The notes beneath the pieces are model-generated. The model did not search any database and had not been told where the DNA came from. It worked only from the letters and a program-made list of their open reading frames with translations. A program made the position numbers and the translations under genes. From assembly GCF_007845675.1 (NCBI RefSeq), contig NZ_VOBR01000018.1, positions 62,001-126,000 on the forward strand: a stretch of 64,000 nt of DNA, read 5' to 3'. This document shows positions 5,450-57,315 of this stretch, piece by piece. Source of the DNA: Lentzea tibetensis (lineage in GTDB: Bacteria; Actinomycetota; Actinomycetes; Mycobacteriales; Pseudonocardiaceae). Each line of letters starts with the position of its first letter. Position 1 is the stretch's first letter.

Positions 5450-5554
5450 AACGAACACATTACCGCACAATTGTTCGAACAGGCATCACTCATTAGGATT
5501 AAAGAACGAAAAGGTGAGCCACCGCCCGCCAGTCACGGAGCCAGCGCGACCACA

Positions 5555-5890: not shown

Positions 5891-14646
<8,756 letters not shown>

Positions 14647-14650
<4 letters not shown>

Positions 14651-16536: not shown

Positions 16537-16712
16537 CGGCGATACTCCATTTCTCCTGACCGCTTGTGCTGAATGTAAAGAGGGCCCCTCTCGGGTCGTT
16601 CTCACGTCCCTACCTGCGATCTCTCACCTTTCTACAGCCGCCTTGACTTGCCCATGGGGTGCGCTGGCACATTGATTGAGCCCGCCGACGGAAATCCATT
16701 TGGGAGGTGCGC
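16537..16712. promoter_or_regulatory. Divergent promoter region between FAAL and thioesterase genes
   Basis: 176-bp intergenic region from which both biosynthetic arms are transcribed outward. On the + strand a TTGACT (16643-16648) could be a -35 element, but the matching -10 is weak (CATTGAT region near 16670). Ribosome sites are clear on both sides: GGGAGG at 16702-16707 for the rightward gene and GGAG for the leftward one. No convincing SARP-type direct repeat was found by eye. Confidence 0.45.
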
Positions 16713-20363: not shown

Positions 20364-20567
20364 ATGGGCATCGACGACGCCGACACGATCTTCCAGGTCG
20401 TGGTCAACGAGCAGGACCAGTACTCGATCTGGTTCGCCGACCGCGCACTGCCCGCCGGCTGGACCGCAGACGGCACCACCGGCACGAAGCAGGAGTGCCT
20501 GCAGCACATCGACACAGTCTGGACCGACATGCGACCCCGTTCCGTCCGCGAGCGCGTCAGCAGCTGA
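20364..20567 (+). CDS. MbtH-like protein
   Basis: 67 aa, with GGAG upstream. Family signatures are all present: NEQDQYSIWF, LPAGW, and CLQHIDTVWTDMRPRS. MbtH proteins bind A domains as chaperones or activators and are often needed for soluble, active adenylation. The position between two NRPS genes indicates that it serves the A domains of this cluster. Confidence 0.96.
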   Translation: MGIDDADTIFQVVVNEQDQYSIWFADRALPAGWTADGTTGTKQECLQHIDTVWTDMRPRSVRERVSS

Positions 20568-28466: not shown

Positions 28467-29509
28467 CCGTAGTCGATGCGCGAGACGTCAGCGTGCACGC
28501 GCTGCTCGCCTCGCACCCGTTGGTGGCCAAGGTGTTCGTCGTCCAGCAGGACGGCCGGACCGTCGTGATGGTCGTGCCGCGCAGGCAGGCCAGGATCCCC
28601 GACCAGGTGTCGCGGACCGTCCAGCTGCGCGACCGCGTCCTCCGGCTCGCTCCACAACGCGTGCTTCAGGTCGGCGTCGGTGACGCGGATCTGCCGGACG
28701 CGCTGGCGAAGCACTGCGCGGTGTACCGGCTCGTCGAGCCGCTCCAAGCCGCGGAAGCGCTCAAGACAGACCGGTACGACCTGGTGCTGCTGGACCTGGC
28801 CGCACCCAAGCTGTCCACTTTGGACATACCGGCCGCGGTGCTCGCCGCGTTGAGCCGCACCGGCGCGGTGTTCGTGGCCAACCTCCGCGACCCCCGCGTC
28901 GAACGGCTCGCGAGCTGGACCCGCACCGGCGAACCGCGCTCGACCCAGGACGCGGCCGGCTGGTCACCTCCGGCACTGGTGCGCGGCCTCGCCGACGTGC
29001 CCGGCGTCGAGGTGCACGCCTACCCGCCGCTCGGCCCGGTCGGCGACTTCGACGTGGTGCTGCGCCACGCCGGTGAGGCCGCCAAGGTGCCGATGCTGCG
29101 CTGGAACCGCGAGGTGCAGTCGCCGGCGCACCTGTCCCGCCTGCTCTCCGAACGCTGCGTCGAACGCGTCCGGCTCGTCGGCATCCCGCTCGCCGGCGTC
29201 GTCGACAACGTGCTCGCCTGGCGGGAGAACGCCCCGCGCTCGGCAGGCGTCCGCTACGGCTTCGGTCTCGGCGTCGACTGGCGCGAGGTCGAGGCCATCA
29301 GTGCCGATCACGGCTACGACGTCACGTTCGTCGCGTCGCTCACCGGCACCGAGTACCACTTCGACGCGGTGCTCGAACGTTCCGGCAGACCGCCCCGCCG
29401 CCCGCCTGACCAGCTGGCACCGCTGCTGCGGCGGTGGCTGGCCGAACGGGCACCGGACATCGGTCCGGTCGACCTCGCTGTTCTCGACGACTTCGGTGGT
29501 GTGCTGTGA
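28463..29509 (+). CDS. NRPS-type methyltransferase-like protein with A-domain flanks
   Basis: 348 aa. Its organisation mirrors an N-methyltransferase inserted between A8 and A9 of an A domain, cut out as a separate protein. The start (about 1-45) resembles the end of an A domain (HPLVAKVFVVQQDGR...). A SAM-methyltransferase-like core runs about 55-200 (VLQVGVGDADLPDAL in place of VLEIGVGxG). The second half (VRLVGIPLAGVVDNVLAW; VDWREVEAISADHGYDV) matches the back half of NRPS MT domains. The end (LRRWLAERAPDIGPVDLAVLDDF) looks like A9. The SAM-binding glycine loop is imperfect, so activity is uncertain. It is coupled to the A-domain gene (ATGA), implying it works on the same residue. Confidence 0.6.
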   Translation: MTVVDARDVSVHALLASHPLVAKVFVVQQDGRTVVMVVPRRQARIPDQVSRTVQLRDRVLRLAPQRVLQVGVGDADLPDALAKHCAVYRLVEPLQAAEALKTDRYDLVLLDLAAPKLSTLDIPAAVLAALSRTGAVFVANLRDPRVERLASWTRTGEPRSTQDAAGWSPPALVRGLADVPGVEVHAYPPLGPVGDFDVVLRHAGEAAKVPMLRWNREVQSPAHLSRLLSERCVERVRLVGIPLAGVVDNVLAWRENAPRSAGVRYGFGLGVDWREVEAISADHGYDVTFVASLTGTEYHFDAVLERSGRPPRRPPDQLAPLLRRWLAERAPDIGPVDLAVLDDFGGVL

Positions 29510-30378
29510 CTCGTACGGTTGTGGTCGGTGGCGCCGGTCAGGTGGGGGAGCTCTTCACCCGCCTGTGCCTCAAGGGTGGCCGGGTCGTGTCGATCGACGG
29601 TGGAGACACGCTCGTACCGGGAGCTGAATCCGTCACGGGTGACGCGTGCACCCCGACCGACGCCATGCTCGACGAGATCAGCGAAGCGGACGTGGTCATC
29701 TTCGCCCTGCCGGAACGCGCCGCGCTCGCCGCGGCACGAGCCTGCGCGCCCGCCGTCCGGCCGGGCACGTTGCTGGTGGAGACGCTGTCGGTGCAGCAGG
29801 TCGTCACACGGGGGTTGACCGTGCTCGCCGAAGAACGCGGTGCCGAGGTGTGCGGGCTGAACCCGATGTTCGCGCCGGCACTGGGTTTCGACGGCAACGC
29901 GGTCGCGGCGATCAGGGTGGTCGACGGCCCGCGCACCGCGACCATGATCGACCTGATCGAGGACTCCGGCGCGGACGTCGTCACGATGTCGGCGGAGGAG
30001 CACGACCGGATCACCGCGGTGCTGCAGGCCGCGACGCACGCCGCCGTGCTGGCGTTCGGCAGCGTCGTCGCGGAACAGGGAGACATCAAGGCTCTCATCG
30101 CGCTCGCACCACCGCCTCACCTGACGTTGCTCGCGTTGTTGGCCCGGATCACCGGTGGCAACCTGGACGTGTACTGGGACATCCAGGCCGCCAACCCCAG
30201 CGCGGCCGACGCGCGTGCCGCGTTGAGCGAGGCGGTCACGGTGCTGGACAAGCTCGCGACGGTCGGCGACCGGGACGGGTTCTGGGAGTGGGTGCGCCGG
30301 ATCGACGACCACCTCGGCGACCACGGCCCTGGGCTGCGCGACCGCTGCGCCGAGCTGTTCGCACTGCCGAGCCGGTAG
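29506..30378 (+). CDS. Prephenate/arogenate dehydrogenase (TyrA/PapC-like)
   Basis: 290 aa; GTG 29506 overlaps the preceding stop (GTGA). Rossmann motif VVVGGAGQVGELF at the N-terminus. The helical C-terminal half carries the TyrA-type signature SAEEHDRITAVLQAATHAAVL. Closest family roles are oxidative decarboxylation of prephenate to 4-hydroxyphenylpyruvate or, in antibiotic clusters, of 4-amino-4-deoxyprephenate (PapC/CmlC type). A chorismate mutase gene at the other end of the cluster (42374) would supply prephenate. No PapA-like aminodeoxychorismate synthase is in the window, which favours the hydroxy rather than the amino series. Confidence 0.8.
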   Translation: MTRTVVVGGAGQVGELFTRLCLKGGRVVSIDGGDTLVPGAESVTGDACTPTDAMLDEISEADVVIFALPERAALAAARACAPAVRPGTLLVETLSVQQVVTRGLTVLAEERGAEVCGLNPMFAPALGFDGNAVAAIRVVDGPRTATMIDLIEDSGADVVTMSAEEHDRITAVLQAATHAAVLAFGSVVAEQGDIKALIALAPPPHLTLLALLARITGGNLDVYWDIQAANPSAADARAALSEAVTVLDKLATVGDRDGFWEWVRRIDDHLGDHGPGLRDRCAELFALPSR

Positions 30379-30391: not shown

Positions 30392-31975
30392 ATGAAGACG
30401 GTCCGCGACGTCACCCGTGACCTGATGCGGCAGCTGGGGCTCACCACGGTGTTCGGCAACCCCGGCACGACGGAGATCGCGTTCCTGACCGACTGGCCGG
30501 ACGACTTCCGCTACGTCCTCGGACTCCAGGAGTCGGCGGTCGTCGCGATGGCCGACGGGTACGCGCACGCCGCCCGGCGGCCGGTGCTGGTGAACCTGCA
30601 CTCCGCCGGTGGTCTCGGGCACGGGCTCGGACACGTCTTCACCGCGTTCAAGAACCGCACGCCGCTGATCGTGCTGGCCGGGCAGCAGATGCGCACGCTG
30701 CTGCCCGACGACCCGTTCCTCGGCGCGAAGGACGCGGCCGAGTTCCCCAAGCCGTACGTGAAGTGGAGCTGCGAACCGGCCCGCGCGCAGGACGTTCCCG
30801 CCGCGTTGGCACGGGCTTTCCACGTCGCCACCCAGGCGCCGCAGGGCCCGGTGTTCCTGTCCGTCCCCGTCGACGACTGGGACCAGCCGTTCGACGGGCC
30901 GGTGCCGGTCCGGCCGCGCATCCCCGGTTTCGCACCGGATCCGGAGACTTTGCAGGCGTTGGCGGAGGCGCTGAACAACAGTGAACGACCGGGCATCGTC
31001 GCCGGCCCCGCGATCGACGAGGACGGTGCGGTCGACGACCTCGTCGCGCTGGCCGAGAAGCTGAACGCCGGTGTGTGGGCGGCCGGTGTGTCACCGCGCT
31101 GTTCGTTCCCGGAGAACCACGCGTTGTTCCGCGGTTTCATCAGCCCCGAGCGCAAGGCGACCGCGGAGGCGTTGGCCGAGCACGACGTCGTGCTGGTGCT
31201 CGGCGCGCCCGCGTTCACCTACCACGTCTACCGCGGCGAGTCGGAAGTCCCGCTGCCACCGCTGTTCCTGGTCTGCGACGACGACCAGGAGCTCGCACGG
31301 GCCCGTGAAGGCGTCGGCCTGCGGTCGACGATGAAGCTCGCGATCACCGCTCTGCACGACCTGGTCGTGCAGAGCGATCGGGAACGACCGGCCGTGCTGC
31401 ACAGGCCGCCGCGGCCGGTCGAGACCACTCCGCTGTCCGCGGGTTTCGTGTACTCGACCATCGCGGAACTGCTGCCGGACAACGCGATCGTCGTCGAGGA
31501 AACGCCGAGCCACCGCACTCTGCTGCACGATCACCTGCCGATCACGAGCACCGACTTCGGTTTCCTCACCACGGCCAGTGGCGCGCTGGGCTACGGCCTT
31601 CCCGCGGCGGTGGGTGCGGCACTCGCGCGTCCGGAGCGGAAAGTCGTCGCGGTCATCGGTGACGGCTCGTCGATGTACAGCATCCAGGCGTTGTGGACCG
31701 CGGCCCGCGAGGAACTCCCCGTCGCGTTCGTGATCCTCGACAACGCCCAGTACTCCGCCGTCCGAACGCTGGGCGCGGCCGCGGGTGGGCGCAACATTCC
31801 CGGCGTCGACCTGGGCGACCTCGATTTCACCGCACTGGCAAGGGGAATGGGGTGTGCGGCGCACACCGTCACTCAGCCCGACGAACTGAAAACCGCACTG
31901 GCGCAGGCGTTCGCTGATGACGTACCGCACCTCGTTCACGTTGTGGTGGACCAAAAACCACCAGCCATGTACTGA
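30392..31975 (+). CDS. Thiamine-diphosphate decarboxylase, benzoylformate decarboxylase-like
   Basis: 527 aa; ATG 30392 with GAGGGG upstream. Three-domain ThDP fold: N-terminal GNPGTTEIAF with the activating Glu, the His segment HSAGGLGHGLG (about residue 70), and the C-terminal cofactor motif GDGSSMYS...LDNAQYSAV. The HSAGGxG segment and GNPGTTE are typical of benzoylformate (arylglyoxylate) decarboxylases. Following a TyrA-like enzyme, it could process an aryl-2-oxo acid. Alternatively it could act on a small 2-oxo acid to make a C2 unit. The sequence alone does not decide. Confidence 0.82.
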   Translation: MKTVRDVTRDLMRQLGLTTVFGNPGTTEIAFLTDWPDDFRYVLGLQESAVVAMADGYAHAARRPVLVNLHSAGGLGHGLGHVFTAFKNRTPLIVLAGQQMRTLLPDDPFLGAKDAAEFPKPYVKWSCEPARAQDVPAALARAFHVATQAPQGPVFLSVPVDDWDQPFDGPVPVRPRIPGFAPDPETLQALAEALNNSERPGIVAGPAIDEDGAVDDLVALAEKLNAGVWAAGVSPRCSFPENHALFRGFISPERKATAEALAEHDVVLVLGAPAFTYHVYRGESEVPLPPLFLVCDDDQELARAREGVGLRSTMKLAITALHDLVVQSDRERPAVLHRPPRPVETTPLSAGFVYSTIAELLPDNAIVVEETPSHRTLLHDHLPITSTDFGFLTTASGALGYGLPAAVGAALARPERKVVAVIGDGSSMYSIQALWTAAREELPVAFVILDNAQYSAVRTLGAAAGGRNIPGVDLGDLDFTALARGMGCAAHTVTQPDELKTALAQAFADDVPHLVHVVVDQKPPAMY

Positions 31976-32081: not shown

Positions 32082-33431
32082 ATGAAGGCGGAGCTGGCGA
32101 TGTTCGGCGGCAAGCCCGCGGTACGGACGGAATACCGGAGACTCGAATGGCCGGTGGTGACCGATGCCGAGCGCGAAGCCGTGCTGCGCGTGCTGGACCA
32201 CCGGAAGTTCACCGTCGGTGCGAAGAACGAGCCCGAGATCCACGGCCTCGAGTCCGAGTGGGCCGAGTTCTGCGACACCCGGTACGCGGTCGCCGTCAAC
32301 AGCGGCACGGTCGCACTGGAGCTGGCGCTGACCGCGCTCGGCATCCAGCCCGGCGACGAGGTCATCGTGCCCGCGCTGAGCTACGTGGCGACCGCGATGG
32401 CGCCGCTCTACCAGCTGGCGATCCCGGTGTTCGTCGACATCGACCCCGTCACGTTCAACATCGACGTCACCAAGATCGAAGAGAAGATCACCAACCGCAC
32501 GCGCGCGATCGTGCCGGTGCACCTCGGCGGTCTGCCCGCGGACATGGACGAGATCCGTGCGCTCGCGAGGAAGTACAACCTGCTCGTCGTCGAGGACGCG
32601 GTGCAGGCGCAGGGCGGCAAGTACCGCGGCGAGACGATCGGCTCGCTCGGCGACGTCGGCTGCTGGAGCCTCAACGTCGAGAAGTCCATCCCCACCTGCG
32701 GTGAGGGCGGCCTCGTCACGACGAACAACGAGGAGGTCGCGGAGCGGATCAAGTCGCTGCGCATCCTCGGCGAGGACCTCAGCACCGAAGAGCGCCTCTA
32801 CGTCTCCACGACCCGCGGCTCCAACCTCAAGCTCAGCTCGGTGCTCGCCGCGTTCACCCGCGCGCAGCTCGCCAGCTTCTGGGACTACCAGGCCAAGCGC
32901 GACGTCAACGTCCCCGTCTTCCTCGACCGGCTGGCCCAGCTGCCCGGCATCACCATCCCGACCGTGCCGAACGACCGGACGCACATGTGGCACATGCTGC
33001 GCTTCCGCTTCGACGCCGAAGCCGCCGGTCTCGGTGACCTGTCCGCGGGCCGGTTCCGCGCCGCGCTGCGCCGCGCACTGCTCGCCGAGGGCGTGCCGCT
33101 CACCCACTACCAGCTCATCCCGTTGCCCGGTCAGCCCGTGTTCACCAAGCAGGACGCGTACGGCCAGGGCCTGCCGTGGTCGCTGCCCGGCGCGAACCCG
33201 CAGCGCTACGACCTCGCCGACTACCCGGTCACCTGCCAGGTCATCGAGGACTCGCTGTGCCTGCGCCGCATGCACCTCAACCCCGGTGCCGGCCCCGCGC
33301 TGGAGGAGTACGCGGACGCGTTCGACCGGGTCTGGAACAACCTCGACGTCATCGGCCGGATGGCCCGTCAGCTGGACTACGCGCCGCCGTGGGCGGCCGT
33401 GCCGGGCTTCGAGAAGGTCGGTGCGGCGTGA
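32082..33431 (+). CDS. DegT/DnrJ/EryC1/StrS-family PLP aminotransferase
   Basis: 449 aa; ATG 32082 preceded by GAGGAAGAG. Motifs: VNSGTVALELAL (PLP phosphate), VVEDAVQAQGGKY (Asp to the pyridine N, about residue 174) and SLNVEKSIPTCGEGG, where the Lys (about 202) should form the Schiff base. In carrier-protein pathways such as vazabitide, an aminotransferase of this fold puts the second amino group on the AmCP-bound 6-oxo intermediate after C2 addition. Its position directly before the split transketolase, with GTGA overlap, supports that role here. Confidence 0.9.
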   Translation: MKAELAMFGGKPAVRTEYRRLEWPVVTDAEREAVLRVLDHRKFTVGAKNEPEIHGLESEWAEFCDTRYAVAVNSGTVALELALTALGIQPGDEVIVPALSYVATAMAPLYQLAIPVFVDIDPVTFNIDVTKIEEKITNRTRAIVPVHLGGLPADMDEIRALARKYNLLVVEDAVQAQGGKYRGETIGSLGDVGCWSLNVEKSIPTCGEGGLVTTNNEEVAERIKSLRILGEDLSTEERLYVSTTRGSNLKLSSVLAAFTRAQLASFWDYQAKRDVNVPVFLDRLAQLPGITIPTVPNDRTHMWHMLRFRFDAEAAGLGDLSAGRFRAALRRALLAEGVPLTHYQLIPLPGQPVFTKQDAYGQGLPWSLPGANPQRYDLADYPVTCQVIEDSLCLRRMHLNPGAGPALEEYADAFDRVWNNLDVIGRMARQLDYAPPWAAVPGFEKVGAA

Positions 33432-34267
33432 CGGTCCAGGCCGAGGCGGTCACAGCGGACCTGTTCCGGTTGGAACGGGTGGCGCTCGCCGTGCGCGAGA
33501 ACGTGCTGGCCATCGGCGCGGGGCCGATCGGCACGCACGTCGGCGGATCGCTGTCGGCGACGGACATCCTCGTCGCGCTGTACTTCGACGTCCTGCGGGT
33601 GCGGCCGGACGAGCCGCGCTGGGACGACCGGGACCACTTCATCCTCAGCAAGGGCCACGCGAGCGCCGCGCTGTACGCGACGCTCGCCGAGCGGGGCTTC
33701 ATCTCCCGCGACGAGCTGGTCACCTACGGCAGGGCGACGGGCAGGCTGATGGCCCACCCGACGCTGTCCGTACCCGGTGTCGAGTTCGCCACCGGAGCGC
33801 TCGGCCACGGCCTGTCGCTCGGCGTCGGGCTCGCACTGGCCGCGCAGCGGGCGTTGCGTCCCAACCGGGTGTTCGTCGTGCTCGGTGACGGTGAGCTCCA
33901 GGAGGGCTCGGTCTGGGAGGCGGCCATGTCGGCCGCGCACCTCGGGGTGGGCAACCTCACCGCGATCGTCGACCGGAACCGCCTGCAGATCAACGGTTCC
34001 ACCGAGGATCGCATGGCACTCGAGCCGCTCACCGACAAGTGGCGCGCGTTCGGCTGGGACGTGTCCACTGTGGACGGGCACGACTTCGCCGAACTGGTAC
34101 CGGCACTGCGGGACGCGCCCGGTGGCGGCAGGCCGTCCGTGATCATCGCGGACACCGTCAAGGGGCGCGGCGTCCGGCACCTCGAGCACCGCAAGCAGGG
34201 CCACTTCGCCAAGCTCAGCCCCGAGGCCTACGAGAGAGCACTCGCCGCATTGCGAGCGGTCGCATGA
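33428..34267 (+). CDS. Transketolase, N-terminal (ThDP-binding) subunit
   Basis: 279 aa; GTG 33428 overlaps the aminotransferase stop. Shows LSKGHASAALYATL (catalytic His loop), GALGHGLSLGVG and the ThDP motif GDGELQEGSVWEAA...VDRNRLQING. This is the first half of a transketolase split into two genes, as often seen in secondary metabolism. With the next gene it should transfer a two-carbon ketol unit. In AmCP pathways the acceptor is the carrier-bound glutamate semialdehyde. Confidence 0.93.
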   Translation: MTVQAEAVTADLFRLERVALAVRENVLAIGAGPIGTHVGGSLSATDILVALYFDVLRVRPDEPRWDDRDHFILSKGHASAALYATLAERGFISRDELVTYGRATGRLMAHPTLSVPGVEFATGALGHGLSLGVGLALAAQRALRPNRVFVVLGDGELQEGSVWEAAMSAAHLGVGNLTAIVDRNRLQINGSTEDRMALEPLTDKWRAFGWDVSTVDGHDFAELVPALRDAPGGGRPSVIIADTVKGRGVRHLEHRKQGHFAKLSPEAYERALAALRAVA

Positions 34268-35211
34268 CCAGCACCTTGTCCGCCGCCACGTCCGACAGGG
34301 AGGCCTACCGGGCCACCCTGCTGGAGCTCGCCCGTGCCGACCAGCGGATCTGGTGCCTCGACTCGGACACCGGCGGGCTGGAGAAGGTGTTCGAGTCCGA
34401 GCTGCCCGGCCAGTACGTCGACCTGGGCATCGCGGAGGCGAACCTGATGTCGGTCGGCGCGGCGCTGGCGAGCACGGGACTGCTGCCGTTCGTCAACACG
34501 ATGGCCGCGTTCGCGTCGGCTCGCGCGCTGGAGCAGGTGAAGATCGACATCGCCTACCACGCGCTGCCGGTGCGGATCGTCGCGACGCACTCCGGGTTCT
34601 CGGCCGCGCATCTCGGGCCGACGCACCACGCGCAGCAGGATCTCGCGATCATGCGGTCGCTGCCGAACATGACCGTGATGACGCCGGCCGACGCGGGCGA
34701 GACCGTCCGCATGGTGCGGGCGGCCGCGTACCTGCCGGGCCCGGTGTACATCCGGATCGGCCGCAACGCCGTCGAGAACGTGTACGACGAGGACGCGGAC
34801 TTCACCGTCGGCCGGGCGGTCGAGCTGCGCTCCGGTGACGACGTGACGATCGTCGCCGCGGGCTCGTACCCGGTGGTGTTCGCACTGGAGGCCGCCGAAC
34901 GCCTTGCCGCGCAAGGCATCGAGGCCACCGTGCTGAACATGCACACCATCAAGCCCCTCGACATGCCCGCCTTGATCAAGGCGGCGGGCACGACCAGAGG
35001 CATCGTGACGGTCGAGGACCATTCGTTGCTCGGAGGGCTCGGCGGCGCGATCGCCGAGGCCATCTCCGTGCACCGGCCGACCCGCGTGCTGCGGGTCGGC
35101 GTGGCGGACGCGTTCTGCGCCCGTCCCGGCACCCATCGCGAGCAGCTCGTCGCGGGCGGCGTCTCACCCGAGCACGTCATCGCGGCCGCCCGCGCGATCG
35201 TCACCAGATGA
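34264..35211 (+). CDS. Transketolase, C-terminal (pyrimidine-binding) subunit
   Basis: 315 aa; ATG 34264 overlaps the partner's stop (ATGA), consistent with equimolar synthesis of the two halves. Motifs include YVDLGIAEANLMSVGAALA with the conserved Glu that activates ThDP, THSGFSAAHLGPTHHAQQD, and the C-terminal domain VTVEDHSLLGGLGGAIAE. Completes the heteromeric transketolase encoded with the preceding gene. Confidence 0.93.
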   Translation: MTSTLSAATSDREAYRATLLELARADQRIWCLDSDTGGLEKVFESELPGQYVDLGIAEANLMSVGAALASTGLLPFVNTMAAFASARALEQVKIDIAYHALPVRIVATHSGFSAAHLGPTHHAQQDLAIMRSLPNMTVMTPADAGETVRMVRAAAYLPGPVYIRIGRNAVENVYDEDADFTVGRAVELRSGDDVTIVAAGSYPVVFALEAAERLAAQGIEATVLNMHTIKPLDMPALIKAAGTTRGIVTVEDHSLLGGLGGAIAEAISVHRPTRVLRVGVADAFCARPGTHREQLVAGGVSPEHVIAAARAIVTR

Positions 35212-35243
35212 TCGTCCACAGTGGATGAAGAGGAGAACGGATC

Positions 35244-35423
35244 ATGACAACCGCCACCGCGAGCATTTGCCCTGACTGCACGGAGACCGTACCGGTGTCG
35301 GCCGGCCTGCGCGTCACGTCGATCGTCGTGTGCCCCGGTTGCAAGGTCGAGCTCGAGGTCATCAGCCTCGACCCGGCCGAGTTCGCCCTGGCGCCGGAGA
35401 TCGAGGAAGACTTCGGGGAGTAG
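35244..35423 (+). CDS. lysW: LysW-like amino-group carrier protein (AmCP)
   Basis: 59 aa with a strong upstream site (AGAGGAGA). Two CxxC zinc pairs (CPDC at 9-12 and CPGC at 30-33) form the knuckle of LysW proteins, and the acidic C-terminus ends EEDFGE, matching the EDWGE tail whose last Glu receives the substrate's amino group. Known role: the carrier's terminal Glu protects the alpha-amino group of glutamate or aminoadipate while side-chain chemistry proceeds. Here it sits between transketolase and LysX genes, the arrangement expected for a secondary-metabolite AmCP as in vazabitide/azinomycin-type pathways, rather than primary lysine synthesis. Confidence 0.95.
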   Translation: MTTATASICPDCTETVPVSAGLRVTSIVVCPGCKVELEVISLDPAEFALAPEIEEDFGE

Positions 35424-35425
35424 CC

Positions 35426-36268
35426 GTGCTGGCCGTCCTGACGACCCGCGCCCGCCTGGAAGAGCGCATGATCTTCGACGCGCTCGAACGGCGAGGCGTC
35501 GCCTACGAGGCGGTCGACGACCGAACGCTGGTCGAAGACCTGCAGGCAGGTCCCGCTGTGCGGTACAGCGGGGTGTTCAACCGGATCATGTCGCACACGC
35601 GCAGCGTGTACGCCGCCCGCCTGTTCGAGGCATCGGGTCATCAGGTCCTCAACTCCAGTCAGGTCGTCGAGACCTGCGGCGACAAGATCCTCACGTCGCT
35701 GGCACTCGTGCGCGCGGGTCTGCCGACACCCCGGACGGTGGTGTCGGTGACGCCCGACGGAGCGTTGAAGGCCATGGAGATGATCGGGTACCCGGCGGTG
35801 GTCAAGCCCGCCGTCGGGTCCTGGGGCAGGCTGCTGTCCAAGGTCAACGACCGGGACGCGGCGGAGACGCTGATCGAGCACAAGCAGGCCCTGAAGTCGC
35901 CCGCCCACAACGTCTACTACGTCCAAGAGTTGATCGACAAACCCGGCCGCGACATCCGGGTGATCGTGCTCGGCGACCGGGTCGCCGCCGCGGTCTACCG
36001 GCGGTCCGAGCACTGGATCACCAACACCGCGCGGGGTGCGACGACCGAGCGGTGTGCTCTGACACCGGACCTGGTGAAGCTTTCCCTGCGGGCGGCCGAA
36101 GCTGTCGGTGGCGGGATGCTCGCCGTCGACCTGATCGAGCGGTCTTCCGGTGAGCTGCTGGTCACCGAGGTCAATCACACGATGGAGTTCCACGGTCTGG
36201 CCGCGGTCGCGGACGTCGACATCGCGGACCTCATCGTCGAGCACGTGCAGGAGGTGCTGTTGCGATGA
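35426..36268 (+). CDS. lysX: LysX-like ATP-grasp ligase (AmCP-glutamate ligase)
   Basis: 280 aa; GTG 35426, two bases after the LysW stop, with GGGGAG just upstream. RimK-family ATP-grasp: GYPAVVKPAVGSWGR (ATP-binding Lys and loop), YYVQELIDKPGRDIRV, and the metal site LLVTEVNHTMEFHG, whose NxTMEF is the LysX/ArgX signature. It should join the alpha-amino group of glutamate (or a near analogue) to the C-terminal Glu of the carrier encoded just upstream. Substrate choice cannot be read with certainty. Confidence 0.93.
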   Translation: MLAVLTTRARLEERMIFDALERRGVAYEAVDDRTLVEDLQAGPAVRYSGVFNRIMSHTRSVYAARLFEASGHQVLNSSQVVETCGDKILTSLALVRAGLPTPRTVVSVTPDGALKAMEMIGYPAVVKPAVGSWGRLLSKVNDRDAAETLIEHKQALKSPAHNVYYVQELIDKPGRDIRVIVLGDRVAAAVYRRSEHWITNTARGATTERCALTPDLVKLSLRAAEAVGGGMLAVDLIERSSGELLVTEVNHTMEFHGLAAVADVDIADLIVEHVQEVLLR

Positions 36269-36417
36269 GCGCGGACTCTGGGGTCGTCGGCGGTGAGCTC
36301 GTCCGGTTCCTGCTCCAGCACCCGGATGCGAGTTGGGCCTGGGCGCTCGTGCCGGGCCTGGTGCGGCTGACGCCGCGAGTGGTCGAGGAGGTGGAAGCCC
36401 GATGCGAGCGTCGGTGA
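36265..36417 (+). CDS. 50-aa ORF resembling a duplicated LysY N-terminus
   Basis: ATG 36265 overlaps the LysX stop (ATGA) and the frame runs to TGA at 36417, overlapping the start of lysY by 16 bp. The reading GGELVRFLLQHPDA nearly repeats the beginning of LysY (GGELVRLLLQHPEV), and the DNA at 36289-36325 matches 36438-36474 (offset 149 bp). It lacks the Rossmann glycine loop and is far too short for a reductase. Most likely a partial 5' duplication that may now serve only as a translational bridge between lysX and lysY; an expressed small protein cannot be excluded. Confidence 0.5.
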   Translation: MSADSGVVGGELVRFLLQHPDASWAWALVPGLVRLTPRVVEEVEARCERR

Positions 36418-37424
36418 TCGGCGGCAGCGGGTACATCGGCGGAGAGCTCGTCCGGTTGCTGCTGCAGCACCCCGAGGTCGACCTGATGCACGTCACGTCG
36501 TCGCGGCACAGCGGACGCCCGCTGCGGGCCGTGCACCCGAACATGCGCGACCAGACCGACCTCACGTTCGTGCCGGACGAGGAGGTCACCGCGTGCGACG
36601 TGGTGTTCCTCGCGGTGCCGCACGGCGCGGCGGCGAAGTCGCTCGACAAGTGGTCCGAGATCGCACCGAAGATCGTCGACCTCAGCGCCGACCACCGGCT
36701 GCACGACTCGGCTGCCCGCGAACGGTTCTACAGCGGTCCGGGGCCGGATCCCGAGTGGCTGTCCCGATTCCAGGCCGGGTTCCCCGAGCTGAACCGGGAC
36801 GGGCTGCGCGGCGCCGACCACATCTCGGTGCCGGGCTGCATGGCGAACGCCGCGATCCTCGCGCTGCATCCCTTGGCACGCGCGGGACTCGTCGAAGGGC
36901 CGGTGCAGGTCGACGCGCGCACCGGGTCGAGTGGCGGCGGCCGGACACCGGACGAGGGCAGCCACCACCCCGAACGCAGCGGCGCGCTGCGGATGGCCAA
37001 GCCGCACGGGCACCGGCACATCGCGGAGATCGAGCAGGCGTGCGGCGTGAAGGTGCACATGTCGGTCACCGCGATCGAGGCGGTGCGCGGCGTGCAGGTC
37101 GTCTGCCGCGTCACGCCCTCGCGTCGCGTGTCCGAGCGCGAGCTGTGGGCGTTGTACCGCGAGGCGTACGGCAAGGAGCCGTTCGTGCGGCTCGTGCGGG
37201 AACGCTCCGCGCTGCACCGGCTGCCCGAGCCGAAGATCCTCAGCGGCACCAACTACTGCGACGTCGGCTTCGCGCTGAACGCCGACGGCGACCACCTCGT
37301 GGTCGTGGCCGCGCTGGACAACCTGGTGAAGGGAGGTGCGGGCAATGCCGTCCACTGCTTCAACATCGCCAACGGTTTCGACGAGACCGCTGGGCTCCGG
37401 TTCGCCGGACTCCACCCGGTCTGA
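36402..37424 (+). CDS. lysY: LysY-like AmCP-glutamyl-phosphate reductase
   Basis: 340 aa; ATG 36402 with GAGGAGG upstream. N-acetyl-gamma-glutamyl-phosphate reductase fold: Rossmann VIGGSGYIGGELVRLLL, catalytic Cys in SVPGCMANAA (about 146) and the conserved STG...PHGHRHIAEIE-type segment (RMAKPHGHRHIAEIEQ). Reduces the carrier-bound acyl phosphate to the semialdehyde. Order in this cluster is W-X-Y-Z-K, all tightly packed. Its 3' end overlaps the kinase gene by about 80 bp. Confidence 0.93.
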   Translation: MRASVIGGSGYIGGELVRLLLQHPEVDLMHVTSSRHSGRPLRAVHPNMRDQTDLTFVPDEEVTACDVVFLAVPHGAAAKSLDKWSEIAPKIVDLSADHRLHDSAARERFYSGPGPDPEWLSRFQAGFPELNRDGLRGADHISVPGCMANAAILALHPLARAGLVEGPVQVDARTGSSGGGRTPDEGSHHPERSGALRMAKPHGHRHIAEIEQACGVKVHMSVTAIEAVRGVQVVCRVTPSRRVSERELWALYREAYGKEPFVRLVRERSALHRLPEPKILSGTNYCDVGFALNADGDHLVVVAALDNLVKGGAGNAVHCFNIANGFDETAGLRFAGLHPV

Positions 37425-38241
37425 GCGGTACGTCATCAAGGTCGGCGGCTCGCTCGGCGCCGACATGTCCCGTGCCTGCGCCGACATCCGCGCGCTGGTC
37501 GATGCCGGGTGCTCCGTGGTCGTCGTGCACGGCGGCGGTGCCGAGTCCGACAAGCTGGCCGCGGAACTGGGGCGTCCGCCGCGCTACCTGACGTCGACGA
37601 AGGGCAGGCGCAGCCGCTACACCGACGCATCACAACTCGACGTGCTCACGTTGGGCATGCTCGGCCGCGTCAAGCCACCGCTGCTGGTGGAGCTGCTGGG
37701 CATGGGCGTGAACGCGGTCGGACTGTCCGGAGTGGACGGCGGGCTGGTGACCGCGCGGCGCAACCCGCCGGTCCGGGTGGTCGTCGACGGCGAGGAACGA
37801 GTGGTGCGCGACGACCTGTCCGGGCGCATCACCTCGGTGAACCCGCGGCTGGTGCGGACGTTGCTGGACGCGGGATACGTGCCCGTCGTGTCACCGCCCG
37901 CGCTGGACCCGGTGGCCGGCCCGCTGAACGTCGACGCGGACCGGTTCGCCGCCGAGCTCGCGATGGCGATGGAAGCGGACTGGCTGATCATCCTGTCGAA
38001 CGTGCCGGGGCTGCTGCGCGACCAGGACGACCCGTCGTCGCTGGTGTCGTCGATCCCGGTCGGTGAGCTGCCCGCGTACCTGGACCTGGCAGGCGGGCGG
38101 ATGAAGGTGAAGCTGCGCAGCGCGGGTGACGCGTGCGCGGCGGGGGTGCGGCACGTCGTCCTCGCGGACGGCAGGCACTCCTCGCCGGTGCTGGCGGCGC
38201 GAGCGGGTACCGGGACGACTTTCGTCGGAGGAACAGGATGA
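37345..38241 (+). CDS. lysZ: LysZ-like AmCP-glutamate kinase
   Basis: 298 aa from ATG 37345, chosen because GGGAGG lies 8 nt upstream inside lysY; the family's conserved part begins later at YVIKVGGSL. Amino-acid-kinase fold with KVGGSL, VVVVHGGGAESDKLA, LTLGMLGRVKP, GLSGVDGG, and the nucleotide-site region VPGLL...AGGRMKVKLRSA. It phosphorylates the free carboxylate of the carrier-bound substrate for the LysY reduction. The long overlap with lysY gives an N-terminal extension of about 32 residues of low complexity, so the true start may differ. Confidence 0.9.
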   Translation: MPSTASTSPTVSTRPLGSGSPDSTRSERYVIKVGGSLGADMSRACADIRALVDAGCSVVVVHGGGAESDKLAAELGRPPRYLTSTKGRRSRYTDASQLDVLTLGMLGRVKPPLLVELLGMGVNAVGLSGVDGGLVTARRNPPVRVVVDGEERVVRDDLSGRITSVNPRLVRTLLDAGYVPVVSPPALDPVAGPLNVDADRFAAELAMAMEADWLIILSNVPGLLRDQDDPSSLVSSIPVGELPAYLDLAGGRMKVKLRSAGDACAAGVRHVVLADGRHSSPVLAARAGTGTTFVGGTG

Positions 38242-39284
38242 GCACGCGAGCAGAGAACCTGTTGCGGCAGATGGTCGACATCCCGTCGCCGTCGGGGGAG
38301 GAGGCCGCGATCGCCGGCTTCCTGGCCGAGGTGCTGCCGGACTTCGGATTCGACGAGGCCTACGTCGACGAGGTGGGCAACGTGATCGCCCGCCGGGGAG
38401 ACCCCGCCGCACCCATGATCATGCTGGTGGGGCACATGGACACCGTGCCGAGCCAGATCCCGGTGCGCCAGGAGGGCACGATCCTGCACGGCCGCGGCAC
38501 CGTCGACGCCAAGGGCCCGCTGGCCACCATGATCTGCGCGGCCGCGGAGGCTTCCGCCGAAGGCGTGCAGATCGTCGTCGCCGGCGTGGTCGAGGAGGAG
38601 ACGTTCGGCAAGGGCGCCACGCACCTCGCCGAGACGTTCCGGCCCGCGGTCGGGTTCGTCGGCGAGCCCAACGGCTGGGCCGGCGTCGGCATCGGCTACA
38701 AGGGCCGCGTCATGATGCAGATCGACGTGAGCCGCCCGTCCGTGCACACCGCGAGCCCCGAGGAGAAGGCGTCCGAGGCCGGTGTCGCGTTCTGGAACAA
38801 GGTCGTGGACTACTGCACCGAGGTGTCCACATCGGACAAGGCGTTCGAACGGCCGATCGCGACGCTGGTGGAGATGAAGGGCGACATCGAGGTCGCGTCG
38901 CTCACGATCTCCGTGCGCACGCCACCCGGCTTCGACCTGCCCGCGTTCGAGGAGTTCGTCGTCGACGCGGCGGGCTCGGACCTGCTGAAGATCGACGACC
39001 GCACGCCCGCGGTGCGCGTCGACACGGCCGGTTCGGCGGTGCGCGCGCTGATGGCCGGGATCCGGGCGCGCGGCGAGCGGCCGCGGCTGAAGCTCAAGAC
39101 CGGCACCGCGGACCTCAACATCGTCGAGCCCGCGTGGCAGGTGCCGATGGCGGTGTACGGGCCGGGTGACTCGAGCCTGGATCACACCGACCGCGAGCAC
39201 ATCGACCTCGTCGAGTACCAGCAGGCCATCGACGTGCTGAAAGACGCGCTGGAGCGCCTCGCGGAGGATCTCCGCGCCGGTTAG
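38238..39284 (+). CDS. lysK: LysK-like M20 metallopeptidase releasing product from AmCP
   Basis: 348 aa; ATG 38238 overlaps the kinase stop (ATGA). Zinc-peptidase marks: VGHMDTVPSQIP (His and Asp), HGRGTVDAKGPLA (bridging Asp) and VVEEETFGKGA (catalytic Glu-Glu). LysK/ArgE-type enzymes hydrolyse the isopeptide bond between the carrier's terminal Glu and the finished amino acid. This is the last step of the carrier pathway, delivering the free diamino acid for NRPS use. Confidence 0.92.
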   Translation: MSTRAENLLRQMVDIPSPSGEEAAIAGFLAEVLPDFGFDEAYVDEVGNVIARRGDPAAPMIMLVGHMDTVPSQIPVRQEGTILHGRGTVDAKGPLATMICAAAEASAEGVQIVVAGVVEEETFGKGATHLAETFRPAVGFVGEPNGWAGVGIGYKGRVMMQIDVSRPSVHTASPEEKASEAGVAFWNKVVDYCTEVSTSDKAFERPIATLVEMKGDIEVASLTISVRTPPGFDLPAFEEFVVDAAGSDLLKIDDRTPAVRVDTAGSAVRALMAGIRARGERPRLKLKTGTADLNIVEPAWQVPMAVYGPGDSSLDHTDREHIDLVEYQQAIDVLKDALERLAEDLRAG

Positions 39285-39344: not shown

Positions 39345-40172
39345 ATGGTGCTCTGGGGCCTCGCGCCGGTCGCGACCCGGTTCCTGGTGCTGACGTCCGA
39401 CCCGCTCGGCGTGATCGCGATCCGGCTGTCGTTCGCGTCGCTGTGCTTCGCGCCGCTGCTGCCGTGGATCAAACCGACGCGCGAGTCCGTGTCGTGGCCG
39501 ATGATCGTGTGCGGGTTGGTCGGGATCGTCGGTTACAACGTGCCGATGACGTACGGGATCCAGCACGTGCAGGCCGGTCTCGCCGGTGTGCTGCTGGCGA
39601 CCGAGCCGCTGTGGATCGCGGTGCTGAGCGTCGTCTTCCTGAAGGAGAAGCTGACCCGGCCGCTGCTGCTGGGGCTGCTCGTGGCGTTCGCTGGCGTCGT
39701 GACGCTGAGCGTGGGCGGCGGGATCGCGTTCGACCCGTCCATGCTCGCCGGGGCGGGCCTGGTGCTGTTCGGCGCGTTCATGTGGGGCGTGTACTCCGTT
39801 GCTGTGGCGCCGCTGGTGCGGCGGTTCGGCGCGTTGCGGGTGAGCGCGGTGACGTTGTGGATCGGCACCGCGCCGCTGCTGGTGTTCAGCGTGCGCGCGA
39901 TGGTCACCACGGGCTCGAACCTGACCCCGACGGCCTGGCTGGTGCTGTTCCTCTACGGCCTGGGCCCGCACCTCGTCGGCATGCTGCTGTGGAACTACGG
40001 CCTGTCGAAGGTGCCGAGCAGCCGGGCCGGCCTGCTGCTCAACCTCTACCCGGTGGTGAGCGTGGCCGCGGGCGTCGCGCTGCTCGGTGAACACGTCGAT
40101 GCCGCCACCCTGATCGGTGGCGGCATCGTCCTGCTGGGCCTCGCAATGTCCCAGCTCAGGGCTCGTGAGTGA
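39345..40172 (+). CDS. EamA/DMT-family transporter
   Basis: 275 aa from ATG 39345. Two EamA repeats with about ten hydrophobic helices (VLWGLAPVATRFLVL..., then a second half after about residue 140). The start is uncertain: the reading frame extends upstream without a stop to the LysK TAG at 39282 and contains a plausible N-terminus (TEKRQAPALIAITVAM) but no ATG or GTG in that stretch, only an ATC at 39297; starting at 39345 trims the first helix. Position at the end of the operon suggests export of product or intermediate; substrate unknown. Confidence 0.8.
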   Translation: MVLWGLAPVATRFLVLTSDPLGVIAIRLSFASLCFAPLLPWIKPTRESVSWPMIVCGLVGIVGYNVPMTYGIQHVQAGLAGVLLATEPLWIAVLSVVFLKEKLTRPLLLGLLVAFAGVVTLSVGGGIAFDPSMLAGAGLVLFGAFMWGVYSVAVAPLVRRFGALRVSAVTLWIGTAPLLVFSVRAMVTTGSNLTPTAWLVLFLYGLGPHLVGMLLWNYGLSKVPSSRAGLLLNLYPVVSVAAGVALLGEHVDAATLIGGGIVLLGLAMSQLRARE

Positions 40173-40210: not shown

Positions 40211-42292
40211 TTAAGCGACGTGGTGGCCGGGGGTGGCGACGGGCAGCGTGGTGGCGAAGGCGGACAGGTGGGTGCGGTGCGGCCGCGCGATCGTCAGCTT
40301 GTGCAGCCACGGCAGGTTGGGCCGTTCCTGCGCCAGCCACAGCTCCGCGCGCTGCGTCACGTCGCGCAGCAGGTCCTCGCCGATCTCCCGGACGACGTCC
40401 GGCGGACGCACCAGCTGACCGGGGTGCTCCAGTGCGCGCCGCGCGTGCGCCTCGAGCCATGAGAACACGTCCACGAGCCGGTCGAGCGCCGTCGCCAGCT
40501 CCTCCAGGTCGAGCTCGGCGTCGGCGAGCTGACGCGCGCGGATCCTGGTGAGCGAGTGGAACTCGTAGTGCGTGCCGCCCAGCTGGTTCTCCGTGACGAC
40601 GTCGAGCAGCTGGTGGTCGACGAGCTTGTCCAGCAACCGCTGCGCCTTGTCCTCGGTGACACCGGCGACGGTCGCCGCGACCCACCCGGAGATGTGCGGC
40701 AGGTCCGGGATGCTGAGCTTCAGCCACAGCGCGCGTTCGGTCGGCGAGAGCCGGTTGGCCGCGGCGGCCAGCCGGGTGCCGGTGTCGAGCGAACCGTAGG
40801 CCAGCTCGGCGATCCGGTGGGTCTCGTCGGCGATGTGGTCGACGAACCGGTCCAGCCGCACCGTCGGCCGCGTGTGCAGCCGGGCACCCGCGGCGCGCAG
40901 CGCGAGCGGCAGGTGACCGCACAGGTCGACGATCGACCGCGCGCTCTCCGGTTCCCGCGCGATCCGCTCGTTGCCGATGAGCCTGCCGAGCAGCTGCACC
41001 GCGTCAGCCATGTCGAGCCCGTCGATCCGCCGCGACGTCACGCCCGGCGTCTCGACCATGCTCGACTGGCTCGTCACGAGCACCGCGCTGTCCGTGCCAC
41101 CGGGCAGCAGCGGCTCGATCTGGGCGCCGGACTCCGCGTCGTCGAGCACGATCAGCAGTCGCTTGCCCGCGGTGATGCTGCGGAACAGCGTCGCCTGGTT
41201 CGCCAGGTCGGTGGGAATGCTGCGCTCCGGCGTGCCCAGCGCGTAGAGGAAGCTGCTCAGCACCTCTTGCGGCTCAAGGGGAGTGGTGCTGCCGCGCAGA
41301 TCCGCGTGCAGCTGCCCGTCGGTGAACCGCTCGCGCGCCCGGTGTGCGGCGTGCACGGCCAGCGCGGACTTGCCGACACCGCCGCGCCCGATCAGCGCGA
41401 CGACCGGTGGCCGTTCGCGGCGCAGCTCGTGGTCGATCCACTCCAGGTGCTCGGTGCGGCCGGTGAAGTCACCGACGTCCGCGGGCAGCTGCGCCGGGAC
41501 CTTCGTGGCGTACCTGGCGCGCTGCGGCTGCGGCGACGTGATCGGGTGCCCGGCGATGATCCGCCGGTGCAGGTCCTGCAGCCGGGCGCACGGGTCCAGC
41601 CCGAGGTTGCTGACGAGCGTCGCCCGCCCCGCCCGGTACACGGCGAGCGCGTCGGCCCGCCGGTCGGACAGGTACAGCGCCGTCATCAGCCTGCCGCGCA
41701 ACTGTTCCCGCAGCGGGTGCTCGTCGACCAGCAGCCGCAGCTCGCTGATCAGCTCCCGGTGCCTGCCCATGGCGAGCTCGATGTCGAGGCACTCCTCGAG
41801 CACCGAGAGCCTGCGCTCGGCCCAGTACGCGGCGACCGCCTCGATGGCCGGGCTCTCCAGCTCCGCCAGCGGACGTCCCTGGAACAACGCCAGAGCCGCG
41901 CGGTACTCGTCGACCGCACCGCCCAGGTCGCCGTCCTCGGCGCGTTCCCGGCCGCGCAGCATCGCCTTCTCGAACACCTGCGCGTCGAGGCACCCCTCGG
42001 GCAGCCGCAGCAGGTAGCCGCCGCGCGCCGTCTCGATCAGCCCGGTCCCGCCGGCCTTCTCGAACGCGCTGCGCAGCCGCCACACGCAGGTCTGGATCTG
42101 CTTGTCCGCCGTGACCGGTGGGGCGTCGCCCCACACGGCGTCGATGATCCGCCCGACCGACACGACCTTGTTGGCCTCGGTCAGCAGCAGTGCGAGGACC
42201 GTCAGCTGACGGTTCTTCGCGAGCTGGACCACCCGGTCCGCGATCGTCACCTGCAATGGTCCAAGAATGCGGAAGAAAACGTCGGTGCGCAT
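40211..42292 (-). CDS. SARP-family regulator with NB-ARC domain (AfsR-like, cluster-situated)
   Basis: 693 aa. N-terminal OmpR-type winged helix (about 1-90; RILGPLQVTIADR..., RNRQLTVLALLL, IIDAVWGD), bacterial transcriptional activator domain (about 95-245), then an NB-ARC ATPase with P-loop ALIGRGGVGKSAL (about 305) and LIVLDDAES Walker B. It is shorter than full AfsR; the C-terminal third is helical without clear TPRs. SARPs activate secondary-metabolite clusters by binding direct repeats near -35 elements. Its position at the cluster edge marks it as the likely pathway activator. It lies 81 bp downstream of the chorismate mutase gene. Confidence 0.93.
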   Translation of the reverse strand: MRTDVFFRILGPLQVTIADRVVQLAKNRQLTVLALLLTEANKVVSVGRIIDAVWGDAPPVTADKQIQTCVWRLRSAFEKAGGTGLIETARGGYLLRLPEGCLDAQVFEKAMLRGRERAEDGDLGGAVDEYRAALALFQGRPLAELESPAIEAVAAYWAERRLSVLEECLDIELAMGRHRELISELRLLVDEHPLREQLRGRLMTALYLSDRRADALAVYRAGRATLVSNLGLDPCARLQDLHRRIIAGHPITSPQPQRARYATKVPAQLPADVGDFTGRTEHLEWIDHELRRERPPVVALIGRGGVGKSALAVHAAHRARERFTDGQLHADLRGSTTPLEPQEVLSSFLYALGTPERSIPTDLANQATLFRSITAGKRLLIVLDDAESGAQIEPLLPGGTDSAVLVTSQSSMVETPGVTSRRIDGLDMADAVQLLGRLIGNERIAREPESARSIVDLCGHLPLALRAAGARLHTRPTVRLDRFVDHIADETHRIAELAYGSLDTGTRLAAAANRLSPTERALWLKLSIPDLPHISGWVAATVAGVTEDKAQRLLDKLVDHQLLDVVTENQLGGTHYEFHSLTRIRARQLADAELDLEELATALDRLVDVFSWLEAHARRALEHPGQLVRPPDVVREIGEDLLRDVTQRAELWLAQERPNLPWLHKLTIARPHRTHLSAFATTLPVATPGHHVA

Positions 42293-42373: not shown

Positions 42374-42646
42374 TCACCCGATGATCTCGTCCTCCAGCCG
42401 GCAGGCCTCGTTGATCAGCAGCGTCGCCAGCTCCGCCATGAAGTCCGGTGACACGCCCAGCGCGCGCCCGCGCTCCGCGTACGCGCGACAGACCGCGCGC
42501 ACGCGGTCCGGCTGCATCATCGGGATGCCCTCGGCCTTCTTCACCGCGGCGACCTCGCCGCACACCCGCAGCCGGTCCGCGATCAGCGCGGCCAGCTGGC
42601 CGTCGAGCACCTCGATCCGTTCCCGGAAGGGTCGGAGGATCTCCAT
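42374..42646 (-). CDS. Chorismate mutase, AroQ type
   Basis: 90 aa all-helical protein: RERIEVLDGQLAALIADRLRVCGEVAAVKK is the AroQ first helix with its active-site Arg and Lys; MMQPDRVRAVCRAYAERG and LINEACRLEDEII complete the three-helix pattern. Converts chorismate to prephenate, or the amino analogue in Pap/Cml pathways. Placed with the cluster regulator and matching the TyrA-like gene at 29506, it probably feeds an aromatic precursor into the NRPS pathway rather than serving primary metabolism. Confidence 0.9.
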   Translation of the reverse strand: MEILRPFRERIEVLDGQLAALIADRLRVCGEVAAVKKAEGIPMMQPDRVRAVCRAYAERGRALGVSPDFMAELATLLINEACRLEDEIIG

Positions 42647-56095: not shown

Positions 56096-56109
56096 GGCCC
56101 CGCTCCTGC

Positions 56110-57301: not shown

Positions 57302-57315
57302 CTAGATTCGGGGTC

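Follow-up and report, generated by a model that had tools for sequence, protein, structure and literature searches.

An amino-group carrier protein cassette joined to a predicted dnacin-class tetrahydroisoquinoline gene cluster in Lentzea tibetensis

We analysed a stretch of 64,000 nucleotides from the genome of Lentzea tibetensis (9.36 Mb), contig positions 62,001-126,000 and hereafter the window, in which genes for amino acid synthesis on LysW, an amino-group carrier protein (AmCP), lie among nonribosomal peptide synthetase (NRPS) genes. The surrounding NRPS machinery is, judged by homology, a naphthyridinomycin/dnacin-class tetrahydroisoquinoline (THIQ) line, a type that makes DNA-alkylating antibiotics. 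It is quite probable, in our estimate, that the locus is a THIQ cluster of this class with an added AmCP cassette and a benzoylformate decarboxylase-like (BFD) enzyme, the cassette's product being joined off-line to the core. Homology, gene order and adenylation (A) domain codes all show the match to the THIQ line, and the AmCP set appears as a separately conserved block. The original prediction had called the pairing of carrier genes with a fatty acyl-AMP ligase (FAAL) loader and a reductase-terminated NRPS a combination not known to it from described systems. Loader and synthetase are indeed present, but the assembly line is itself of a known type; what is new is the AmCP cassette built into a dnacin-class cluster. 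A literature search, made in open-licence papers only and thus no proof of novelty, found no such joining.

Eighteen genes run in one direction from 16707 to 40172, in the order of the plus-strand rows of Table 1, from the thioesterase to the EamA-family transporter, and are separated by intergenic gaps of -4 to 133 bases, the overlap of about 80 bases between LysY and LysZ excepted. The opposite strand carries the FAAL-peptidyl carrier protein (PCP) gene and the three-module NRPS gene to the left of this directon, and a SARP regulator and a chorismate mutase to its right. The carrier genes had been described as running co-directionally behind NRPS genes, an aminotransferase and a split transketolase; this holds for the NRPS of condensation, adenylation, thiolation and reductase domains (C-A-T-R), which shares their directon, and fails for the FAAL and the three-module NRPS.

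According to PMC7570522, the dnacin B1 genes run DinE (chorismate mutase), DinF (PapC-like), DinG (unknown), DinH (A domain), DinI, DinJ (C-A-PCP-RE), DinK (MbtH), DinL (C-A-PCP with an inactive A domain), DinM, DinN (AL-PCP) and DinO (three alanine modules), and the genes of the window match these neighbours in identical order. As reference we used 80 kb fetched from the A. pretiosum locus (G150), whose open reading frame (ORF) lengths agree with the table in PMC7570522. Identity to this locus is 45-77% for the window genes and 39-77% for those of the 20-kb left flank (L096), where the DinA/B region matches at 59%, P at 39%, V/W at 63%, R6 at 67%, R7 at 77% and X at 64%. The same flank holds the transketolase, acyl carrier protein and KASIII set for the hydroxyethyl unit (DinU 66%, DinT 60%, DinS 57%, DinQ 69%); the LysW-linked transketolase was rejected as a source of that unit, given this separate set. 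Pfam domains of the flank include FAD-oxidase, aminodeoxychorismate (ADC) synthase, HpaB and methyltransferase, and the genes expected for p-aminophenylalanine (PAPA) type precursors are present (ADC synthase, chorismate mutase, prephenate dehydrogenase-like protein and HpaB-type hydroxylase). With dnacin B1 and naphthyridinomycin the cluster thus shares the NapO/N/M/L/K/J/I/H-type line, the gene in the DinG place, PapB/PapC-type genes, ADC synthase, HpaB-type hydroxylase, hydroxyethyl-unit genes, a SARP, the core order and the A-domain codes. Unlike it, the 80 kb of the dnacin locus hold neither a LysW, aminotransferase and transketolase cassette nor a BFD. The protein in the DinG place is weakly conserved (29-63% where matched) and had no match in Microbispora G400, G714 and G578.

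The closest structure to the Fe(II)/2-oxoglutarate oxygenase is PDB 6daw (469.8 bits), which is NapI (PMC10884159), and the gene product is a putative NapI-type arginine 4,5-desaturase. NapI has Asp245/Ala247 where VioC has two Asp (PMC10884159). A stretch RIDP-x-F, which by our count maps to this pair, reads RIDPAF in five of ten clusters, that of the window included, and RIDPVF in two; it was not found in the other three (G150, the dnacin cluster, G577 and G578), so that RIDPAF is a weak marker and not a sure one. The oxygenase also passes NCBIfam NF041363 (GntD, enduracididine hydroxylase; 402.2 against 345) though closest to NapI, a likely source of misnaming. A TSGST motif was not found in the A domain of the second NRPS (17453-20344), which fits the inactive A domain of DinL. 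The idea of a novel lipopeptide line was dropped once the homologues of NapI and NapH and the gene order of dnacin had been recognised.

The A-domain codes (numbered by a GrsA stretch) bear directly on the fate of the AmCP product. The stand-alone A domain reads DGGHSGDVWK in ten of ten clusters with and without AmCP genes, and the C-A-T-R enzyme reads DAGD[VI]AE[VI]WK in the same ten of ten, dnacin included. Codes of the three-module enzyme (NRPS1) are DLYDNALTYK, DLYNNALTYK and DLYNNALTYK, which we take to be alanine-type, as they are in the seven clusters where NRPS1 lay in the stretch searched (one partly; G444, G714 and Microbispora G400, whose rows fell on other domains, are omitted from this count). 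In dnacin the DinO modules are assigned alanine, the DinH-type A domain 3-hydroxy-PAPA and DinJ dehydroarginine (PMC7570522). Both non-alanine codes are the same as in AmCP-free THIQ clusters, which leaves the line without an adenylation domain that could take the AmCP residue; this residue is probably not an NRPS extender and would most likely be attached off-line. The lipopeptide aldehyde or alcohol with an AmCP-made residue, first suggested as the product, is not supported in view of these unchanged codes and the gene-for-gene match to a THIQ line.

As for the cassette, the co-directional W-X-Y-Z-K set foreseen at 35244..39284 is complete by family models. With the aminotransferase and transketolase genes (32082-35211) directly upstream, it fills 32082-39284. 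LysW has the two cysteine pairs (CPDC and CPGC) read earlier as zinc pairs, and the C-terminal Glu of its EDFGE tail; it scores 42.3 bits against PF21344 (cut-off 27). LysX reaches 323.5 bits against TIGR02144 (cut-off 275.6) and contains the GSWGR motif, LysZ 286.6 bits against NF010659 (cut-off 223), and LysK, at 363.9 bits, stands barely above the NF003367 cut-off of 363 (one other LysK tried fell below it, at 354.3). Primary lysine or arginine synthesis by this set is unlikely, as the genome has LysA and ArgJ above cut-off and, of 397 genomes in the order, just 21 have LysW, L. tibetensis among them.

A scan of GTDB genomes turned up nine loci whose aminotransferase is 82-92% identical to that of the cassette. 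The scan was non-exhaustive: it missed Saccharothrix syringae (91%), and there are 36 further protein clusters (P0163-P0198) at 79% or more. The order aminotransferase, transketolase N- and C-terminal subunits, LysW, X, Y, Z and K is conserved in nine of nine, so that a chance grouping of these genes is excluded. In midpoint-rooted trees (rooted for drawing) the 11 cassettes of this kind form one clade (support 100/100 for the aminotransferase, with a stem of 0.64, and 99/94 for LysX). Aminotransferase identity is 82-92% inside the clade; outside it, 11 loci are at 48-51% and four more at 33-36%. The LysW tail is EDFGE in 11 of 11 members and EDWGE in the 13 of 13 other loci listed. Counts from fetched stretches (the relatives' loci, Microbispora, the LysW loci and the THIQ comparisons) cover those stretches. 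Among the 20 other LysW loci of the order (up to 20 kb on each side, contig permitting), 19 have both transketolase halves nearby, two a FAAL-grade match (345 bits in G040, 380 bits in G168) and one an R-domain match (G196); AmCP genes alongside a FAAL, or alongside an R domain, occur elsewhere but rarely. The FAAL-grade proteins of G040 and G168 are 40-41% identical to that of the window, AmCP and FAAL being combined there outside a THIQ context. The same cassette clade occurs without a THIQ line in three Streptomyces loci (L026, L027 and L030) and two Actinophytocola loci (L028 and L029). By Pfam, a PF13480 transferase and an MFS gene lie beside the cassette in L026, and a PF13480 and a tryptophan-halogenase-like gene nearby in L028; ORFs that look similar by eye occur in L027 and L030.

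By homology the cassette is predicted to be an AmCP pathway of the type that makes 2,6-diamino-5,7-dihydroxyheptanoate (DADH), no exact stereoisomer being implied. The best solved relative of its aminotransferase is Fic25 of ficellomycin (459 bits), and the DADH-type reaction is supported because Fic25 entries are titled as DADH enzymes ('Fic25 complexed with PLP-(5S,6S)-N2-acetyl-DADH adduct'); the predicted model of the aminotransferase had a mean pLDDT of 48.9, and its fold search served only for these titles. Split transketolase and DegT aminotransferase are likewise found in vazabitide A, s56-p1 (PMC9303977), ficellomycin and azinomycin, joined by LysW, X, Y, Z and K where the pathway is of AmCP type, the main account of the azinomycin pathway in PMC9570651 being of N-acetyl glutamate. 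DADH is given as (2S,6R)-diamino-(5R,7)-dihydroxy in PMC9303977. Compared with those DADH pathways, the cassette forms a distinct clade, is joined to a THIQ line and has the extra BFD. The assignment made at the outset was right in kind, by Fic25 and the transketolase halves of other LysW loci, with DADH itself a candidate product.

The joining is itself conserved. When 391 genomes of the family were searched with the oxygenase, 50 matched at E <= 1e-60, nine of these at 59% identity or more. Four of the nine carry the cassette, namely L. tibetensis, Lentzea sp. NBRC 105346 of the same genus (G602), Umezawaea tangerina and S. syringae; in the fetched stretches of the five other THIQ clusters (G150, G444, G714, G577 and G578) cassette and BFD went unmatched. 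Two Microbispora genomes have the line, from FAAL to chorismate mutase, and the cassette on one contig each, with the left-side genes on other contigs. The search for further clusters with LysW, transketolase, FAAL and reductase-terminated NRPS, proposed at the outset, thus brought the AmCP-THIQ genomes, L. tibetensis included, to six in four genera (Lentzea, Umezawaea, Saccharothrix and Microbispora), which is a lower bound.

Two more genes follow the pairing. Looked for genome-wide in 16 genomes, the BFD is found at 72-84% in the five other AmCP-THIQ genomes and at no more than 42% in the five THIQ-only genomes. The AmCP-only genome G403 has one at 61% on another contig; it was set aside, having no adjoining AmCP gene and, as the only THIQ-type matches around it, a DinC-like stretch (34%) and ABC-transporter stretches. 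In an alignment with benzoylformate decarboxylase, the BFD retains the Glu of that enzyme and both of its His positions. The second is a DUF5602/TTHB210-like protein left of the window (L096:12910-13716), with an N terminus judged lipoprotein-like by eye, present in six of six AmCP-THIQ genomes, among the THIQ genes in each, and in none of ten others. It had no PDB profile match, and although its predicted model is confident (pLDDT 91), a fold search gave nothing at E <= 0.001; on these grounds and its lipoprotein-like signal it was rejected as the missing ligase. The Microbispora clusters have 6.5 to 7.2 kb between BFD and cassette, and the insert at L024:3480-9553 encodes a TauD-type oxygenase, parts of an ABC transporter and an M48 peptidase.

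Compared with dnacin, the AmCP-THIQ genomes have this additional DUF5602 lipoprotein and lack a close relative of the DinC leader peptidase. In a search of 11 genomes, DinC was matched by G150 itself, which has a second copy at 38%, and further by G444 (51%) and G714 (49%). Three AmCP-THIQ genomes have matches of 37-39% elsewhere (the best in L. tibetensis, 39%, on another contig). No NapG/DinC-type peptidase was matched in the L. tibetensis cluster, and among those 11 genomes the other three AmCP-THIQ genomes, G577 and G578 gave no match. Within the sample, a DinC-type peptidase is thus absent from some members of the class.

How the two parts might work together can be outlined from known relatives. 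LysX would load glutamate onto LysW, as in vazabitide biosynthesis (PMC9303977), LysZ and LysY would convert it to the semialdehyde, the transketolase would add a two-carbon unit, and the DegT aminotransferase would give a DADH-like C7 diamino acid that LysK releases. The free amino acid would then be processed; this may involve a 2-oxo acid that the BFD-like enzyme decarboxylates. Attachment of the processed unit would come once the THIQ core is complete or almost so, the PAPA-derived aryl-amine being the simplest acceptor. One might speculate that the appended group masks the warhead in place of leader-peptide maturation, there being no close NapG/DinC-type peptidase in the six genomes.

Several points weigh against a THIQ cluster that makes and attaches an AmCP product in this manner. 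Off-line attachment is the weakest link: no ligase or amide synthase for it was found among the Pfam-scanned genes of the window and left flank (part of the flank genes being scanned), nor was a reductase common to the AmCP-THIQ clusters seen. LysW, at 41.2 bits, falls below the TIGR01206 cut-off of 53.2, as do 14 of the 21 LysW matches in the order. The aminotransferase sits on a long separate branch (0.64), apart from the Fic25 clade. In its HWITNTARG stretch LysX has the same Ile as Thermus LysX, other actinobacterial rows being without Ile and mostly with Arg, so that aminoadipate is a possible substrate. G444 and G578, counted here as cassette-free, have another, distant LysW elsewhere in the genome. 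The EamA transporter is not conserved: it has matches in the Lentzea and Umezawaea clusters but none in the S. syringae and Microbispora G400 clusters.

A more specific form of the pathway, possible though unlikely, would make this a tetrazomine-type cluster in which the AmCP pathway and the BFD supply (2S,3R)-3-hydroxypipecolic acid. Tetrazomine, from Saccharothrix mutabilis, carries this residue as an aryl amide. To our knowledge it is not a quinone, which the DinX-like ring hydroxylase of the cluster would suggest. It belongs to the two-carbon-bridge THIQ group (PMC9268379), which it would share with the present product, and the (2S,3R) isomer is tied to it (PMC9968057). On this route, transamination of DADH at C2 would give a 2-oxo acid, BFD would decarboxylate it, the resulting aldehyde would cyclise with the 6-amino group to form a piperidine, and oxidation of C7 (CH2OH) would yield the carboxyl that acylates the aryl-amine of the PAPA-derived THIQ core. 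The stereochemistry fits on paper: with DADH C6 and C5 becoming pipecolate C2 and C3, Cahn-Ingold-Prelog rules applied by hand give 2S,3R (C6 passes from R to S because the carboxyl takes priority over the carbinol carbon, and the descriptor of C5 remains R). The PAPA-type genes and the BFD that accompanies the cassette in six of six AmCP-THIQ genomes are also as expected. It is weakened by the (5S,6S) adduct in the Fic25 structure, which would lead to the opposite isomer, and no ligase, shared imine reductase or shared C7 oxidase was identified. The searches made found no tetrazomine gene cluster. That AmCP-made DADH becomes this acid or a close hydroxymethyl-piperidine through BFD-type decarboxylation and is fixed to the THIQ aryl-amine is put forward only tentatively, as a rather unlikely outcome.

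Two neighbouring pathways might instead share an operon and a regulator and make two separate compounds; the AmCP product would then stand by itself, as it does for the Streptomyces and Actinophytocola loci that have the cassette only. We regard this as improbable. Five of the nine relatives have the cassette and no THIQ-line matches within 10 kb, and their genomes' FAAL matches reach 52% identity at most, against 69-83% in the other four; in Streptomyces sp. SPB074 the cassette is flanked by a PF13480 transferase and an MFS gene, and the Microbispora insert parts BFD from cassette. The presence of BFD and DUF5602 lipoprotein in every AmCP-THIQ genome, and of the latter, which sits among THIQ genes, in no other, argues for one pathway, even if the BFD of AmCP-only G403 has to be listed alongside.

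Less probable again is that LysX loads aminoadipate, giving a C8 homologue or a lysine-like residue. The HWITNTARG stretch shared with Thermus LysX speaks for it, as does the grouping of the clade with Thermus LysX in the tree (98/96), although the Thermus row is a long branch; a second stretch, NHTMEF, is likewise shared by the clade with Thermus LysX, but also with one other row (G033). However, Thermococcus LysX, which PMC10433800 calls bifunctional, carries an identical HWITNTARG, and the pair that follows EF in the cassette's LysX, Gly-Leu, is by our placement of the motif closer to the Gly-Phe and Ala-Leu pairs of glutamate enzymes (PMC10433800). The 'aminoadipate kinase' label of the NCBIfam model matched by LysZ was dropped as evidence, since both other actinobacterial LysZ tried pass the same model. 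Glutamate thus seems the likelier substrate. That the NRPS builds the AmCP amino acid into an acyl-peptide aldehyde or alcohol as an extender, as first supposed, is very improbable: the shared directon, the R domain and the FAAL would suit it, but both codes are those of AmCP-free clusters and the acyl chain belongs to the leader in the naphthyridinomycin (NDM) class (PMC7570522).

That class uses a cryptic acyl chain or leader peptide, and its R domain serves Pictet-Spengler/Mannich steps (PMC7570522). The predicted cluster (Table 1) begins at some point to the left of the window and ends near 42.6 kb, the chorismate mutase gene being the rightmost gene common to the compared clusters.

Table 1. 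Genes of the predicted AmCP-THIQ cluster within the window, with the matches on which their naming rests
Feature	Position	Strand	Match
Three-module NRPS (C-A-T x3), Ala-type codes, NapO/DinO homologue (acyl-tri-Ala leader)	5891..14710	-	57% to DinO
FAAL-PCP loader, NapN/DinN homologue	14647..16605	-	62-63% to DinN
Type II thioesterase, DinM homologue	16707..17456	+	59%
C-A*-T NRPS, degenerate A domain (A*), NapL/DinL homologue	17453..20344	+	53% over 58% of length to dnacin locus
MbtH-like protein, DinK homologue	20364..20567	+	77%
C-A-T-R NRPS, code DAGDVAEVWK, NapJ/DinJ homologue	20593..24948	+	73%
Fe(II)/2-oxoglutarate oxygenase, NapI/DinI kind (putative L-Arg 4,5-desaturase)	24971..25993	+	64-66% to DinI; PDB 6daw
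Stand-alone A-domain protein, code DGGHSGDVWK, NapH/DinH homologue (aromatic amino acid)	26022..28466	+	55% to DinH
Unknown protein in DinG place	28463..29509	+	no Pfam match; 45% over 74% to dnacin locus
Prephenate dehydrogenase-like, DinF (PapC-like) homologue	29506..30378	+	47-48% to DinF
Benzoylformate decarboxylase-like thiamine diphosphate (ThDP) enzyme (BFD)	30392..31975	+	NF005485, 677.4 bits (cut-off 493)
DegT-type aminotransferase, DADH kind	32082..33431	+	DegT/DnrJ-type, 287.9 bits; Fic25 homology
Transketolase N-terminal subunit	33428..34267	+	PF00456, 145.1 bits
Transketolase C-terminal subunit	34264..35211	+	PF02779, PF02780
LysW amino-group carrier protein, 59 aa, tail EDFGE	35244..35423	+	PF21344
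LysX ATP-grasp ligase	35420..36268	+	TIGR02144; GSWGR motif
LysY (ArgC-like) reductase	36402..37424	+	argC model, 332.7 (cut-off 233.6)
LysZ (ArgB-like) kinase, start picked among in-frame codons (80-base overlap with LysY)	37345..38241	+	NF010659
LysK (M20) hydrolase	38238..39284	+	NF003367
EamA-family transporter	39345..40172	+	matched in Lentzea and Umezawaea clusters
SARP regulator, DinR3 homologue	40211..42292	-	55-56%
Chorismate mutase, DinE (PapB-like) homologue	42374..42646	-	67%

Between the DinQ homologue and the NRPS, an 8-kb stretch (window 22-5470 and L096:17925-19906 of the left flank) holds Hsp70-like, OmpA-like, HTH and DUF222 genes; Umezawaea has only 70 bases at the position of the Hsp70-like/OmpA-like/DUF222 stretch, which looks like a lineage-specific insertion. 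To the right, a YcaO protein, SARP-type regulators and a luciferase-like monooxygenase (53852-58251) form a separate, probable locus for a ribosomally synthesised and post-translationally modified peptide (RiPP). In S. syringae a YcaO protein (74%) is encoded about 6 kb from the chorismate mutase end of its AmCP-THIQ cluster.

Two well-studied logics, amino acid synthesis on a carrier protein and the THIQ assembly line, are joined here, and the joining is conserved across four genera, in six genomes or more. The joining predicts a THIQ antibiotic bearing an appended amino acid unit, for which S. syringae, U. tangerina, Lentzea sp. NBRC 105346 and Microbispora are the strains to inspect, and it gives an unusual relative of benzoylformate decarboxylase a testable role. 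It also offers a hypothesis for the origin of hydroxypipecolate: if true, tetrazomine-like antibiotics would gain a route to this residue that is independent of lysine and pipecolate.

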